Shown in pieces: positions 63 through 30,156 of a stretch of DNA of 35,580 bases. Made by a program: the position numbers and the translations under genes. The stretch covers positions 1-35,580 of the IMG/VR virus record IMGVR_UViG_3300037487_000033; one strand, given 5' to 3'. The notes under the pieces were generated by a model that ran no database searches, was not told the origin of the DNA, and saw nothing but the letters and a program-made list of their open reading frames with translations. The number at the start of each line of letters is the position of its first letter. Position 1 is the first letter of the stretch. The DNA comes from a virus.

Positions 63-1634
63 TTACTTGTCTTTGCCACTCAGGTACTTGTTCCCAAGTA
101 AGCCTGCTGATGTTGCGGTCGCAATTGCACCGGCCAATTTGGGGTCAATAAACCCGGCGTGGGCGTCACCCCGGATGATCATGTCTCGCGCTGTTTCTGG
201 CGACACGTTCATGCGTTTTGCTGCCTTGCCAATTTGCATTGCCAGCAATTCCAACTTACCCGCACCAATCGGTGAGGTCACGCCGGTAGCGCCCGATCCA
301 GCACCCCAAACCACCGCCTGAGCAGGCACCGCCTCAAGTTCTGCCTTGGCAGCAATGCGATTTTTCCACCACGGCCCCAACGCAACCATCTCAGGAACCG
401 ACGCACTCGCATTTGGCACCGACTCAACGCCCTTCTTGGTCGTAGCGCCGCGCACATCAGGCAACCCCACCAAACGCGACCAATGCGCGTCACCCACCGG
501 CCATTCAGTCTGAAACCCCGTCTCAGGCACGCCCGACGCATGAATGTAACTTGGCACCTTGGCAGAACCCATGTCCAGTTCGCCGCTGTTGACGTACTTT
601 TCCATTGGCCCGCTGTGCGCCGTGCTGTGATACGGGTGACCAATGATCCCGCGCATATCCGCCGGGAAGTTGGCACCGCGCCGGAATTCTGCCTGCCCGC
701 CAAAATTCTTGAAGTCGTCAAACCGGCCCTGCTTTGCCAGCCAGTTCGCACCCGTGCCACGGTTAAATTCCGTCAACACCTCAGAACCCGGCGATGCCAT
801 GCCGGTCAGCGTGTTGAACTTCATGTACTCCGACACCGCCTTGTCCGGGCCGTAAATTTGCTTGAACTGCTGGAACAGCGGATCCATCGTGTACCAAGAC
901 GCCATGCCCTGATTCAACTCCGGGTACCTCCGCGCCTCCTCCAGCATATTCAGAATTCGGGCCTCGTTTCTTGGGTTCATCACCTCCGACGCATGAGCCG
1001 CCCCACGCGCACTAGCCGCCGCCTTAAACGGACGCTCGGTCATGTTCCCCTTGCGCCTGCCCTGCTCCGAGATTTCCCACAAGTCCTGCCGGTTCACACC
1101 AAACAACTGCTTAAGCAACGGGTCTTCCGGCGCAACCCTCGACGCAGCCTCAGCAACCAACGCCTTGGGGTCACCATAAATCTCAGGGTACGCCACCCGC
1201 TGCGGGCGCATCACCGTAGGCTTGCCAGATGTAGCCGCCAACGAGTTGGTGGGTGGCGCAGCATTCAACTGCATCCCCATGCGGGTCATGTAGTTCTCAG
1301 CCATGCGACCCGCCTGCGGTGCCAGTTCCCTCGCACCCGCTTGCAATGCCCGACCGCCCAACCTCGCCGCAGGCGAAACAAACGGCGCGACCGCCAGCGC
1401 AGCCTCAGCCACATCCGGCTTGAGTTGCGTCGTCTGGCCCCTGCCCGTGGTCAGCGCATCCCCATACGACATCTTATCCAGCGTGCTGGCTATCGCAGGA
1501 ACCCCAAAGAAACTAGCCACACCCTGCATCTGCTGAGTTCGCTCTGGCGAGAAGGTGGCGGCTAGTAGATCATGGAACGCCCCAATGTACGGGTTGCGTT
1601 CGATGGGCTGCATGGAGTCAGGGTATTGAGGCAT
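63..1634 (-). CDS. Conserved phage protein of unknown function lying between the terminase subunits (523 aa)
   Basis: I cannot assign a function. The first ~130 residues are Ala/Gly-rich with hydrophobic helices (AALAVAPFVSPAARLGG), as in the membrane-interacting regions of phage ejection proteins. From ~160 to 480 the protein is dense in Trp, His, Gly and Pro (DPLFQQF, FNTLTGMASPGSE, GVPETGFQTE, VGDAHWSR), which looks like a folded conserved globular domain rather than a fibre. The C terminus is a short Ala/Gly helix. The start is ATG with no clear Shine-Dalgarno; Met8 is an alternative. If the window edges join, the large terminase gene begins about 141 bases downstream, so this gene sits between terS and terL, where P22 has nothing of this size. 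An ejected virion protein or an enzyme are both possible. That it is a gene is nearly certain. Confidence 0.85.
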   Translation of the reverse strand: MPQYPDSMQPIERNPYIGAFHDLLAATFSPERTQQMQGVASFFGVPAIASTLDKMSYGDALTTGRGQTTQLKPDVAEAALAVAPFVSPAARLGGRALQAGARELAPQAGRMAENYMTRMGMQLNAAPPTNSLAATSGKPTVMRPQRVAYPEIYGDPKALVAEAASRVAPEDPLLKQLFGVNRQDLWEISEQGRRKGNMTERPFKAAASARGAAHASEVMNPRNEARILNMLEEARRYPELNQGMASWYTMDPLFQQFKQIYGPDKAVSEYMKFNTLTGMASPGSEVLTEFNRGTGANWLAKQGRFDDFKNFGGQAEFRRGANFPADMRGIIGHPYHSTAHSGPMEKYVNSGELDMGSAKVPSYIHASGVPETGFQTEWPVGDAHWSRLVGLPDVRGATTKKGVESVPNASASVPEMVALGPWWKNRIAAKAELEAVPAQAVVWGAGSGATGVTSPIGAGKLELLAMQIGKAAKRMNVSPETARDMIIRGDAHAGFIDPKLAGAIATATSAGLLGNKYLSGKDK

Positions 1635-1800: not shown

Positions 1801-2298
1801 TCAACATTTGACGTCGCGTGACTCAACATCGACCACATCACTACTGTCTTGCAACACGCGCTGCTTTGCCTGGGCGAGCGCATCCATGACGCTGATGCGT
1901 GTGTCGGTGACGGCAACATCGATGCGATCACCATACCTGCGCGGTTGCAGTTTCGCAGCCACCCACTTGCGTGCGTCAACGCGCAGCCGCTTGTCGGCCA
2001 CCCAAGCGCTCATTGCAGCGGGTTCTAAGCCCTCTGGAGGCGTTGAATCGCTGATCTCAAGTATCTCCTCGGCCAACCTGTCTGCGCGGTCTTGTAGCGC
2101 CTTCTCGTAGCGTGCTTGAAAGTCAAGGTCATCAGCGATGTGCTGTCGAGCCACCGCCACGCTCGGCATCCACGGGTGCGCCTTCAACGCGCTGCTGAGG
2201 CTCCCGCCCTCGGTTATGGTTTCCAAGATAACATTCCAGCACTTATTGTCGGGGCCATATAACTTGGGCTGGCCCCCACGCTTAATTACTGCGTTCAT
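1801..2298 (-). CDS. terS: Terminase small subunit (Sf6 gp1-like)
   Basis: This is the DNA-recognition subunit of the packaging motor; it binds the pac region and feeds concatemeric DNA to the large subunit. The 165-aa protein has an N-terminal helical region able to form a helix-turn-helix. A central block (RYEKALQDRADRLAEEILEI, then KLRVDARKWVAAKLQPRRYG) is the hallmark of the Sf6/P22-type small terminases that assemble as a ring. The C-terminal tail is acidic. The ATG at 2298 is preceded by a good purine-rich ribosome-binding site (GGGGGGAG, 3 bases upstream of the start). It is separated from the large terminase only by the 523-aa gene once the window edges are joined. Confidence 0.9.
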   Translation of the reverse strand: MNAVIKRGGQPKLYGPDNKCWNVILETITEGGSLSSALKAHPWMPSVAVARQHIADDLDFQARYEKALQDRADRLAEEILEISDSTPPEGLEPAAMSAWVADKRLRVDARKWVAAKLQPRRYGDRIDVAVTDTRISVMDALAQAKQRVLQDSSDVVDVESRDVKC

Positions 2299-2380: not shown

Positions 2381-2447
2381 ACAAGTTAGCACTCACCAAC
2401 ATCTTAGTCCTCCCAGAACGATTTCAGCCGCGACGAACAGGGAACTC

Positions 2448-2473
2448 GGAACTATCTCTTTAGAGATAGTTCC
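2448..2473. repeat. Perfect 12-bp inverted repeat in the GTTCCC array
   Basis: GGAACTATCTCT and its exact complement AGAGATAGTTCC are separated by two bases. Flanking GGGAAC (2440-2445) and GTTCCC (2479-2484) extend the symmetry outward with bulges. On the plus strand the hairpin is followed within ~12 bases by T-rich sequence (GTTTTTCGTCTTTTTG), so it could also terminate rightward antisense transcription. A dimeric protein-binding site is equally likely. Confidence 0.7.
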
Positions 2474-2506
2474 AGTTCGTTCCCGTTTTTCGTCTTTTTG
2501 CCCCCT

Positions 2507-2526
2507 GAACTGTTCCCGAACAGTTC
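2507..2526. repeat. Perfect 9-bp inverted repeat in the GTTCCC array
   Basis: GAACTGTTC and its exact complement GAACAGTTC flank two Cs. The palindrome overlaps two of the phased GTTCCC copies, so the repeats appear both as direct copies 11 bases apart and as an inverted pair. That is typical of a site bound by a dimeric regulator or initiator. Confidence 0.65.
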
Positions 2527-2553
2527 CCAAAAAGTTCCCAGTTCCCACCTTGT

Positions 2554-4566
2554 TCACCCCTTTTTCTTGCGGATCATCATCGCGCTTGACTCGACGGGAT
2601 CGCTCACAATCCAGCCTCCATCGTCTGATTCAATAACCTGCGCCACTAATAAAGCAGCGATCAACTTACCATCTGCTGATGGCCTGACATATACCCGCGC
2701 AGACGCCTCGCTGATACCCATCTTGTGAACCAGATACTCCATCAACGCACCACGCTCAATGTACGGATGGCCCCTTCGTTCTGGTGTGCCTGACGCCCAC
2801 CATGCGTTCTCAATCGTCTTGCGGTGCGTTGCCAACTTGACATCAGTCTTGACTGTTGCCTGCATGGTGGATGGCACCAACACCGCGCTGGTGACTGGCT
2901 GTCCATCCTCATCCAGCCAACCAGGGATCGTGACCTGTTGCAGTTCCACGTTGATGGTGGGTGCCAGTTCTGCATCCTTGCTCTTGCGCTGCACCAGTTG
3001 CATGGGCAGGTTGGATGTGGCGGGCACAATGCTGATCTCAATGTCCAGCGCACCTCGCCATGCTGATGATCCACGGGCACGGTGCTGTGCTTCGTCGCTC
3101 ACGCCTGTGTGGTGGACAAGAATGACCGTGCACTTAGATTCGCGCATAAGTTGTGCGCAGGCGTCGAGCATGGTCTTGGCGTCTTGAGCGCTGTTCTCGT
3201 CGCCTGCCAAGAACCTATGCAACGTGTCCACCACGATCACGCCTGGTGTGCGAGGCAGCGACCTGATGTGCGCTGCTGCCAGTTGGTAGCCCTCTGGTGT
3301 GTTGAGGTCGCAGCCTGACTGACTCAGCCACATCGACAGGCTGGTCACGCTGTTGTGATGTTTCCATGCTGCAATGCGACCACGCAGGCCTTGGTGACCT
3401 TCACCGGCAAGGTAGACCACATCACAAGGCTTGACCTTGTGGCCTTGCCAATCGGTCTTGCCTGATGCAAGGTGCAGCACCCAGTCCAACACCACGAACG
3501 TCTTGCCACCGCCTGATGGGCCGTGAACCATCACCAAAGCGTCGGCTTGTATCCACCTCTTTACCAGCCAACTGACTGGGCTAGGCTGTGCGCTGAATGA
3601 GTCAGCACCTACCAGCCAATCGTTGACGGGTGGCGTCAGCAAGGCCAGCAGGTCACCACCTGCTTGCACATAATCGTTGGCGTCTCCAAGGTCTGGTGGC
3701 ATCACCATGCGTGCGCCGTACTTGGCACAGGCCTGCTCGGCGTACCGCTGGCCGACTCCGCTTTTGTCATGGTCGGCCACAATCACAAGGTCGCTGGTGG
3801 GATGAAGCGCACGCAGCGTGCCTGTCACGGGCACGAGGTTGGACGCTGAGTATGCAACGATTACCGGCCTCGAGGTGACCTGGTGGATAGTGGCCGCGGT
3901 GGCGAAGCCCTCGGCAACGTAGATCGTGCCGGGTTCATCAAGGTTGCCCAACCACCAGAACTTGCCGCCTGTCTGCCCACCGGGGTGGTAGAGTTTACCG
4001 CCCTCGCTGTCGATGTACTGCAACGACGCCATCGTGCCGTCAGCATCGTACAAAGGCACCACCAGACGGCCATCGCCCGTGACCCGTGCGTTGTTGGGCA
4101 GGATGTTCTTGCGCTTGAGGTACGGATGGTCTGGCGATGCACCTATGCAGTCGCTCCAAATCTGATCAACGACATCCGCGGCCACTTCGTGCTTGCGTGC
4201 CTGTTCCGCATCGCGTGCAGCCTTGGCCTCGGACATCCTGCGAGCGAACGCCATCTCATCAACCTGGTTCAGCTGCCTGCCCACCTCGGCACGCCACGTT
4301 GATTCCATGCCGGCACGCCAACAACCAAACCGCCCAGCCGGTATGCCGTCAGAAAAGGCAACATACCAACCAGGCTTGTCGCCGTGGCCCGGCGTGCCCT
4401 TGGTGCCTGACTTGAAGCGGTGAATCTTGCCGTCAAGGTGAATAATGTCTGGTGGCTCCAGACCAGCCCCGCGCATGGCGTCTTGGAGCTGCTGCTCTGG
4501 CGAAGCCAACACAGGATCGGCTGGCGGCGACCAGGAGCCGCCGAAGATGTGGACTAGGTTAGCCAT
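2554..4566 (-). CDS. Toprim primase - RecA-fold helicase fusion
   Basis: This protein should prime and unwind phage DNA during replication. A Toprim domain is visible (YVAEGFATAA near residue 218 and the metal motif VIVADHDKSG near 263). It is followed by a RepA/DnaB-like ATPase with Walker A GPSGGGKT (~350), Walker B VIVVD (~445), a VILVHHTG motif (~483) and RGSSAWRG (~498). The C terminus (~560-665) resembles a winged-helix region. No complete N-terminal zinc ribbon is seen. I chose the ATG at 4566, which overlaps the stop of the upstream regulator by eight bases (ATGGCTAA); an in-frame TTG at 4575 would add three residues. The gene is translationally coupled to the Cro-like gene, so both share the leftward promoter. 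Confidence 0.92.
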   Translation of the reverse strand: MANLVHIFGGSWSPPADPVLASPEQQLQDAMRGAGLEPPDIIHLDGKIHRFKSGTKGTPGHGDKPGWYVAFSDGIPAGRFGCWRAGMESTWRAEVGRQLNQVDEMAFARRMSEAKAARDAEQARKHEVAADVVDQIWSDCIGASPDHPYLKRKNILPNNARVTGDGRLVVPLYDADGTMASLQYIDSEGGKLYHPGGQTGGKFWWLGNLDEPGTIYVAEGFATAATIHQVTSRPVIVAYSASNLVPVTGTLRALHPTSDLVIVADHDKSGVGQRYAEQACAKYGARMVMPPDLGDANDYVQAGGDLLALLTPPVNDWLVGADSFSAQPSPVSWLVKRWIQADALVMVHGPSGGGKTFVVLDWVLHLASGKTDWQGHKVKPCDVVYLAGEGHQGLRGRIAAWKHHNSVTSLSMWLSQSGCDLNTPEGYQLAAAHIRSLPRTPGVIVVDTLHRFLAGDENSAQDAKTMLDACAQLMRESKCTVILVHHTGVSDEAQHRARGSSAWRGALDIEISIVPATSNLPMQLVQRKSKDAELAPTINVELQQVTIPGWLDEDGQPVTSAVLVPSTMQATVKTDVKLATHRKTIENAWWASGTPERRGHPYIERGALMEYLVHKMGISEASARVYVRPSADGKLIAALLVAQVIESDDGGWIVSDPVESSAMMIRKKKG

Positions 4567-4744
4567 TGAGCGCAACCGTGCTTGTCTGGCGCAGGTACGT
4601 CTCGATGCTGCGCATGGTGGACTTGCTCGGCCTGCTCTTGCCGTTGACCAGCCGGTACAGCGTGAACACGCTCAACCCCGTTGCCTCAGCCACCACCGGC
4701 AGGCGGCGATCAGCCAGACGTTGCTTGATTTCGGTCAGGTTCAT
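4559..4744 (-). CDS. Short Cro-like helix-turn-helix regulator (61 aa)
   Basis: A minimal XRE/Cro-type DNA-binding protein. Residues ~14-38 (VVAEATGLSVFTLYRLVNGK) form a recognisable helix-turn-helix, with ATGLS-TLYR at turn and recognition helix, followed by a short dimerisation helix. There is no C-terminal cleavage or oligomerisation domain, so it is Cro-sized, not a CI-type repressor. It is the first gene leftward from the divergent promoter region and overlaps the primase-helicase start. It probably represses one or both of the promoters at 4774-4806. No good ribosome-binding site precedes the ATG. Confidence 0.8.
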   Translation of the reverse strand: MNLTEIKQRLADRRLPVVAEATGLSVFTLYRLVNGKSRPSKSTMRSIETYLRQTSTVALNG

Positions 4745-29337: not shown

Positions 29338-30156
29338 TTACAAGAAATAAATAAACGCCGCTGCTGGGCCACCTGCCCCACCTGCTCCACCCGTCAAGCC
29401 AGCACCTCCACCGCCACCCCCACAACCATAGCCACCACCAGCACCACCCGCGCCACCAACGCCAGAGTTGTTAGTGCCTCCACCTCCGCCGCCAACACCA
29501 TAATTGAGGTCGGCCATAAAAAACCCGCTACCACCTTTCCCGCCCGCTGCCGTGCCCCCAGGCACAAGTAATCCCCCCAAAGCAGTAAACGTCAAGCCGC
29601 CCCCTGCAAAATCGGTCGTAGTACAGCCGCCGCCGCCCATGCCGCCCGTGTGGGTGTTCAGGTTTGTAGCGGTTGTAGAAACACCCGCGCCGCCAGCGGC
29701 TATGCCACCCGCTGTGGCTGCCTGAATAGTGTTGGCTCCAGTATTAAGCGCATAAGTGCCTGATGTGCTAACGGTTCCGGTAGTGCCAGCAGCACCGACT
29801 GTAGCCGCCGCTCCATTACCACCAGCACCCCCGTTATTTACAGAAACCAAAGTCAATGATTTTGTGTTGGTTAAAGAAAGAACACCTGTAGAGGAAATGT
29901 CAATTCTCAAACTTCCTTGAAATAAATTTGCAGGCATCAAAACAAAGTTTGCGCCGCCACCGCCACCACCGCCTCCTCCGGTTCCTGCGCTACCCGCTGC
30001 GCGGGAGTGCCCGTTTCCACCGTTTCCGCCTCGCCCACGCAAATGTGCAAAAACAAATGAAGCAGATTTTGGAACTGGAATTGTGGAAACTAAAGACCCC
30101 TGACTTGATACAATAACTGGCTTTTTTAAGTCAGATAGAAATCCTTGAAAGTCCAT
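29338..30156 (-). CDS. Glycine-rich adhesin-like virion protein (272 aa)
   Basis: The start ATG 30156 makes a TGATG overlap; a longer reading is unsupported. A short leading domain (FQGFLSDLKKP) precedes a Gly-rich region (residues ~40-70, e.g. GRGGNGGNGHSRAAG) and a small beta block (ANFVLMPANLFQGSLRIDIS). From ~108 to the end the chain is Gly/Ala/Thr repeats with runs of up to six to nine Gly. This resembles the glycine-rich tip adhesins of phages, where Gly-rich loops form the receptor-binding surface. A role as virion adhesin or decoration is inference. Confidence 0.7.
   Translation of the reverse strand: MDFQGFLSDLKKPVIVSSQGSLVSTIPVPKSASFVFAHLRGRGGNGGNGHSRAAGSAGTGGGGGGGGGANFVLMPANLFQGSLRIDISSTGVLSLTNTKSLTLVSVNNGGAGGNGAAATVGAAGTTGTVSTSGTYALNTGANTIQAATAGGIAAGGAGVSTTATNLNTHTGGMGGGGCTTTDFAGGGLTFTALGGLLVPGGTAAGGKGGSGFFMADLNYGVGGGGGGTNNSGVGGAGGAGGGYGCGGGGGGAGLTGGAGGAGGPAAAFIYFL

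Follow-up and report, generated by a model that had tools for sequence, protein, structure and literature searches.

What does a dense cluster of short repeats do between the primase and terminase genes of a phage? The question is raised by IMG/VR virus record IMGVR_UViG_3300037487_000033, a 35,580-bp virus sequence that was analysed at its full length (hereafter the window) and encodes a P22-like portal, a large terminase (TerL) and an Sf6-like small terminase (TerS). Eight copies of the word GGAAC/GTTCC occupy approximately 110 bp (positions 2440-2546, minus strand) directly 3' of the stop codon of a primase-helicase gene. The initial annotation had left three options for this array, namely a replication origin, a late-gene operator and a packaging-start site. 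According to our comparisons of related loci, the array is very probably a replication origin of the iteron-plus-hairpin type, bound by the phage's own primase-helicase. The patterns in the sequences that argue for this are a layout conserved among relatives, co-variation of the word with a helix of the primase-helicase, cassette swaps of both, an enrichment of DnaA boxes and a conserved dyad.

Layout of the array in the window and in relatives

The genes on the minus strand run in the order Cro-like helix-turn-helix (HTH) protein (4744-4559), primase-helicase (4575-2554), a 255-bp gap bearing the array, and TerS (2298-1801). Read in the sense of the primase gene, five words are direct, one more is direct and forms the outer arm of a hairpin, and two are inverted. 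GTTCCC occurs on the plus strand at 2479, 2512, 2523, 2534 and 2541, GGGAAC at 2440-2445, and two shorter copies of the word at 2448-2452 and 2469-2473; the copies at 2512, 2523 and 2534 follow each other in 11-bp steps, and the copy at 2479 is 33 bp from 2512. The left module (2507-2546, minus strand) holds the direct words at 2541-2545, 2534-2538, 2523-2527 and 2512-2516 together with a perfect 9-bp inverted repeat (2507-2515/2518-2526). Next comes a linker (2485-2506, minus strand), whose GGGGGCAAAA part recurs in relatives whatever their word. The right module consists of the words at 2479-2483 and 2469-2473 and, across a central hairpin or dyad (2448-2473), an outer inverted word (2441-2445, minus strand; GTTCC in the primase sense) that lies beyond it. 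This hairpin has perfect 12-bp arms (2448-2459/2462-2473) and a 2-nt loop, and at its outer ends two words stand in inverted orientation to each other. Everything reported in the initial annotation, from the copies and their phase to both inverted repeats, is present.

The gap contains 8 copies of GGAAC/GTTCC vs 1.0 expected, a count that none of 2000 dinucleotide shuffles reached. None of the 2000 had a hairpin arm of 12 bp (longest shuffled arm, 9 bp) or two 11-bp GTTCCC steps either, the word and phase tests having been designed after the motif was seen. An unbiased test for any 6-mer recurring this often in the gap gave just P = 0.045, because the gap also contains low-complexity G/C runs. 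It is consequently the relatives, and not the single window, that supply the decisive evidence. Across the whole window, GTTCCC is not enriched (17 copies vs 17.0 expected). C/G-run low-complexity tracts flank TerS at 2345-2390 and 1700-1745, and the tract at 2345-2390 inflates chance repeat counts in the array gap. A second stretch of the window, at 29541-29735, also has one 6-mer at least five times inside 110 bp.

Relatives were gathered by primase-helicase searches of viral contigs, genome contigs and phage records. Once duplicates had been removed, these left 171 different combinations of a primase with the DNA downstream of it, the window among them. The initial annotation had proposed a search of related phages for the same array; the layout usually recurs there, and it is the word that changes. 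In 156 of the 171 loci, the same primase gene is followed by an array to which a word class could be assigned, and each genome keeps to a single word. Clustered short direct repeats that are uniform in sequence within a replicon are a mark of iteron origins. The usual order after the primase stop codon is two or three words in direct orientation, then inverted ones, a linker, two further words, a hairpin and, last, inverted words again. The linker is often GGGGCAAAA, and GGGGC[AG]A[AG]A or GGGCAAA was found in 98 of 146 loci. Spacings from word to word are mostly 10, 5, 8, 7 and 11 bp in relatives, and the 11-bp phase, to which the initial annotation had given weight, is thus not the key property. 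The alphaproteobacterial LexA box is GTTC-N7-GTTC, and all four matches to this pattern in the window fall inside the array. LexA boxes were nevertheless rejected as its identity, the pattern being a by-product of word spacing, and both word and spacing change in relatives.

Words were counted from a candidate list compiled after a first pass over the top 6-mers, and the resulting number of classes (17) should be taken as 'many', because the class borders are partly discretionary. The commonest among the 156 loci are GGAAC (41), GTAAC (32), AGGGGGC (26) and GGGTCA (18), followed by AGGGGCA (7), CGGACC (6), GGTACA (5), CGTACC (4), ACCCCCA (4) and rarer words. In locus L048, an inserted stretch displaces the array, and for this reason the counting script gave it no class; its helix (SAKQYIKPSV) matches the GTAAC type, and GGTAAC is indeed what its displaced array reads. 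Locus L029 has no array 3' of the primase although its domain is of the GTAAC type; its downstream DNA looks like unrelated, possibly bacterial sequence, perhaps from an assembly chimera. The dyad is retained among relatives with 57 different sequences. At least 9 of 11 pairs are formed in 136 of 156 arrays vs 22 of 300 shuffled ones, and it is this comparison with shuffles, not the raw count, that counts as evidence, because the best dyad per region was picked. A dyad kept with differing sequences suits a structure that is opened at initiation better than a single fixed site for a protein. The array is also carried by the cultured phages CGphi29 (Salicola), 1N2-2 (Idiomarinaceae), XX1924 and PB15 (Alteromonas), whose primases are 50-55% identical. 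Salicola phage CGphi29 (locus L103) is the named source of a TIGR-Tas (TasH) locus (PMC12045711).

Co-variation of the word with the primase-helicase

The primase-helicase (673 aa; 2554-4575, minus strand) was identified from PF13362, PF13481, PHROG primase families and an AlphaFold2 model. It is predicted to comprise a TOPRIM domain, an AAA_25 RepA-like helicase, which also matches RepA/DnaB-like PHROG families, and a C-terminal winged helix. The latter (residues 590-673; 2557-2808, minus strand) is the predicted reader of the word on the basis of AlphaFold2, PDB matches and co-variation. The AlphaFold2 model of residues 575-673 (predicted local distance difference test 95.1, predicted template modelling score 0.85) has helices at 608-618, 623-629 and 638-644 and a strand pair at 648-651/654-657. 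Its best fold matches in the PDB include many winged-helix proteins with Z up to 7, a generic level, and a sequence search of the domain against solved structures gave nothing meaningful. The P4 alpha domain is not among the fold matches listed, which carries no evidential weight. By analogy with HTH proteins, residues 623-629 would form the recognition helix, and this predicted helix with the loop that follows (residues 620-636; 2668-2718, minus strand) holds the residues that track the word, namely 628, 629 and 634.

Partial correlations were calculated between local protein identity and word sharing, with core identity (residues 60-560) held constant. There was essentially no correlation over residues 1-510 (partial r from -0.12 to 0.09) and a weak one over residues 511-590 (0.03 to 0.13), while residues 601-650 gave 0.43-0.65. 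At a core identity of 0.90-0.97, residues 605-657 are 91% identical between loci that share a word and 56% identical otherwise. Single-residue co-variation peaks at 628, 629 and 634; positions 634, 628 and 635 ranked top among 355 tested, and the best position outside the domain reached less than half of the top value. The word could be predicted by nearest neighbour from residues 620-636 in 140 of 142 cases, compared with 102 of 142 from the enzyme core. When neighbours with a core identity of at least 0.8 were barred, the figures were 91 and 29 of 106, respectively.

Among 12 phylogenetically independent pairs on supported branches that contrast GGAAC with GTAAC, Gln628 went with GTAAC in 9 and against it in 0 (p = 0.004). 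If residue 628 makes a glutamine-adenine contact, as it may here, established chemistry predicts that a change from Val to Gln comes with one from C to A in the complementary strand. Loci L011 and L094 combine GTAAC with an unchanged Val628, their differences being at 627 and 634, and there is therefore more than one solution for the reading of GTAAC.

Linkage without function was considered as an explanation and rejected. Hitchhiking would affect synonymous sites equally and peak next to the array. The correlation for synonymous identity is about -0.02 at codons 600-640 and 0.18 at codons 640-673. Towards the array, the signal from amino acids is down to 0.06 by residues 655-662 and then recovers in part, to 0.33 over the final eight residues. 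On both counts, the co-variation is not mere linkage. The word is most likely read by the C-terminal domain of the primase-helicase, and it is by co-variation alone that this specific reader of the putative origin is indicated.

Word classes require 45 changes on a tree of the core and 21 on a tree of the C-terminal domain (both quick FastTree trees), the minimum being 16. Loci L022 (GGAAC) and L166 (AGGGGGC) are 99.8% identical in the core and 34.5% identical in the C-terminal domain. Their DNA is approximately 95% identical until 300-350 bp before the stop codon, then drops, and is 96% identical again from 250 bp past the stop codon; thus reader and sites can travel as a cassette of approximately 0.6 kb. 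The coding end of the reader is 8 bp from the first array site, so that one recombination event can exchange both, and such comparisons suggest that reader domain and array can swap together between otherwise near-identical phages. Small changes in the predicted recognition helix also accompany word changes, as in loci L021 (GGAAC) and L023 (GTAAC), whose words differ with few residue changes in helix and loop.

Origin function and its alternatives

One argument for an origin function is that primase and helicase are fused in the predicted reader. Furthermore, exact DnaA boxes (TTATCCACA) occur at 3.13 per kb in the 350 bp 3' of the gene vs 0.037 per kb elsewhere in the same loci (84-fold enriched) and lie beside 76 of 156 arrays. 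Nearby DnaA boxes, frequent and not universal, are thus found in relatives as at iteron origins. Among the options of the initial annotation, the origin is the well supported one: the array keeps to the primase-helicase gene, varies together with the C-terminal domain of the protein and, in half of the relatives, has DnaA boxes beside it.

In the mechanism that we propose, the short words (5-7 bp) would serve as iterons for the C-terminal winged helix of the primase-helicase encoded upstream, and several copies of the protein on direct and inverted words would load the helicase. The hairpin between the inverted words would be opened or extruded, with the TOPRIM primase beginning synthesis there, and host DnaA at flanking DnaA boxes may assist in many relatives. 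That the protein physically binds the words, that the helicase is loaded, that priming takes place at the hairpin and that replication starts at this site is what we infer from the patterns described above.

Several points weigh against an origin. The recognition helix was assigned by analogy and not from a protein-DNA complex, and word classes were assigned from a list made after a first look. Fifteen of 171 loci have no word class, and a few (e.g., L107 and L275) seemingly have no array. In the window itself, no exact DnaA box follows the primase gene, and GC skew, which the initial annotation had suggested as a check for an origin, has no clear switch at the array and is uninformative.

The alternative that survives best is an operator, through which the winged helix would repress or time its own operon or downstream genes while replication starts elsewhere. 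Co-variation reveals that the words are read and not for what purpose, and the array does sit between genes of one strand. However, it lies 3' of the primase gene and not 5', the downstream genes vary widely among relatives, DnaA boxes cluster at the array, and no sigma-70-like promoter was found nearby on the minus strand, although this is a weak test. We therefore consider an operator unlikely.

A packaging-start (pac or cos) site read by TerS (1801-2298, minus strand; PF20901, phrog_1482) has very little probability left. In the window and its closest relatives, the gene that comes next is indeed TerS, but it appears to be a neighbour only: a window-like TerS lies within 1.5 kb of the array in only 44 of 144 loci, 74 arrays have no window-like TerS nearby, the array follows the primase whatever gene is next, and the word tracks the primase C-terminus. 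TerS is followed by a 523-aa open reading frame (63-1634, minus strand), which on a circular map would lie between TerS and TerL and for which neither PHROG (at E 0.001) nor Pfam (at E 0.1) gave a match.

It is just as improbable that the Cro-like HTH protein (4559-4744, minus strand; HTH_3) reads the words as an operator, which would have been the late-gene operator of the initial annotation. This DNA-binding protein is encoded directly upstream (5') of the primase and was tested as an alternative reader, but over 104 loci it shows no co-variation with the word (r = -0.02), compared with 0.62 for primase residues 605-657, and no GTTCCC lies near the start of its own gene. Finally, a transcription terminator or RNA element that ends the primase operon, with the repeats incidental, is hardly credible despite the perfect hairpin shortly 3' of the gene, since the T-run that follows the hairpin of an intrinsic terminator was not found (T-tract after 1 of 129 hairpins), no terminator is predicted at the window hairpin, there is no Rfam match, and the words would be left unexplained.

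Relation to known origins

The helicase of the P4 alpha protein is of the superfamily 3 (SF3) type, whereas the helicase here is AAA_25/RepA-like and not SF3. The putative phage origin otherwise resembles that of P4, where the alpha protein acts with an iteron origin (Yeo et al. 2002; Ziegelin and Lanka 1995, via PMC4234260). Both combine a TOPRIM-type primase, a helicase and a C-terminal winged helix in one protein and use an origin of short repeats (PMC4234260), the three parts being predicted here from PF13362, PF13481 and the winged-helix model. Unlike in P4, the array here lies directly after the gene around a hairpin, and its word varies between close relatives.

Archaeal plasmid pRN1 and phage BIP-1 also have a primase-helicase with a C-terminal winged helix, and an essential stem-loop origin directly 3' of the initiator gene, conserved in structure and variable in sequence (PMC4234260). 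A stem-loop in this position, with its structure kept and its sequence varying, is present here as well. In contrast, pRN1 has an archaeo-eukaryotic primase, an SF3 helicase and no iterons, while the phage has iterons around a shorter hairpin and TOPRIM plus AAA_25. By analogy, the phage origin may work like both, with iterons as in P4 and a stem-loop 3' of the initiator gene as in pRN1; we file it under neither, because its helicase is of the AAA_25 type.

The oriV of RSF1010 (IncQ) uses RepC on iterons, the RepA helicase and the RepB' primase at ssiA/ssiB, as described in PMC4234260. A RepA-type helicase and iterons are shared with the phage, as are, on our proposal, hairpins for priming, and three separate proteins there fill the roles that one protein appears to combine here. 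As in lambda O and ori-lambda, a phage initiator would read iterons beside or inside its own gene (PMC6022878). Lambda O differs in lacking a primase and a helicase and in having its iterons within its gene. Lambdoid O proteins, with their type-specific origins, are a further parallel.

Co-variation of reader and iterons is also known from PLE satellites, where RepA_N and origin modules are swapped and a domain-mimicking, origin-cutting phage nuclease is thought to select the swaps (PMC8263062). The PLE initiator is unrelated (RepA_N, N-terminal domain), with iterons of approximately 30 bp that fall into two groups, as against approximately seventeen word classes here. In geminiviruses, residues of an iteron-related domain of Rep vary in step with the iterons, which flank a stem-loop (PMC10653810), but these are plant single-stranded DNA viruses with rolling-circle replication, and protein and mechanism are unrelated.

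The array is best called a new variant among iteron origins, with a specificity that appears unusually broad and modular. A word-based search with partial literature coverage found no description of this origin in this phage group. More tentatively, and with somewhat more doubt than confidence, the loci may be viewed as a large natural family of orthogonal phage origins. On this view, a single initiator scaffold would have come, through diversification of its winged helix, to approximately 17 or more word specificities and would move together with its origin as a cassette. The selecting agents would be relatives in co-infection, satellites or nucleases directed at origins, which exploit or attack a word that several phages have in common. 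A search for the whole module on plasmids gave no match covering 80% of the protein. An exact 22-mer search for satellites with the array and no primase returned five contigs, all primase-bearing: four were already among the primase loci (L012, L013, L014 and L016), and the fifth is a primase fragment (L160).

The array and its reader give a large phage group, most of it uncultured, a concrete candidate for its origin and initiator. Near-identical phages offer a natural series of matched reader-site pairs in which changes of winged-helix specificity can be studied, and with the same series one can ask directly why origins so often turn over their 'password'. The matched pairs might also serve as mutually independent replicons.

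Six related contigs from one sample (L252-L256 and L258, metagenome 3300020045) carry two words, ACCCCC(A) and CTAACA, with primases about equally distant, and possibly represent coexisting origin types within one community.
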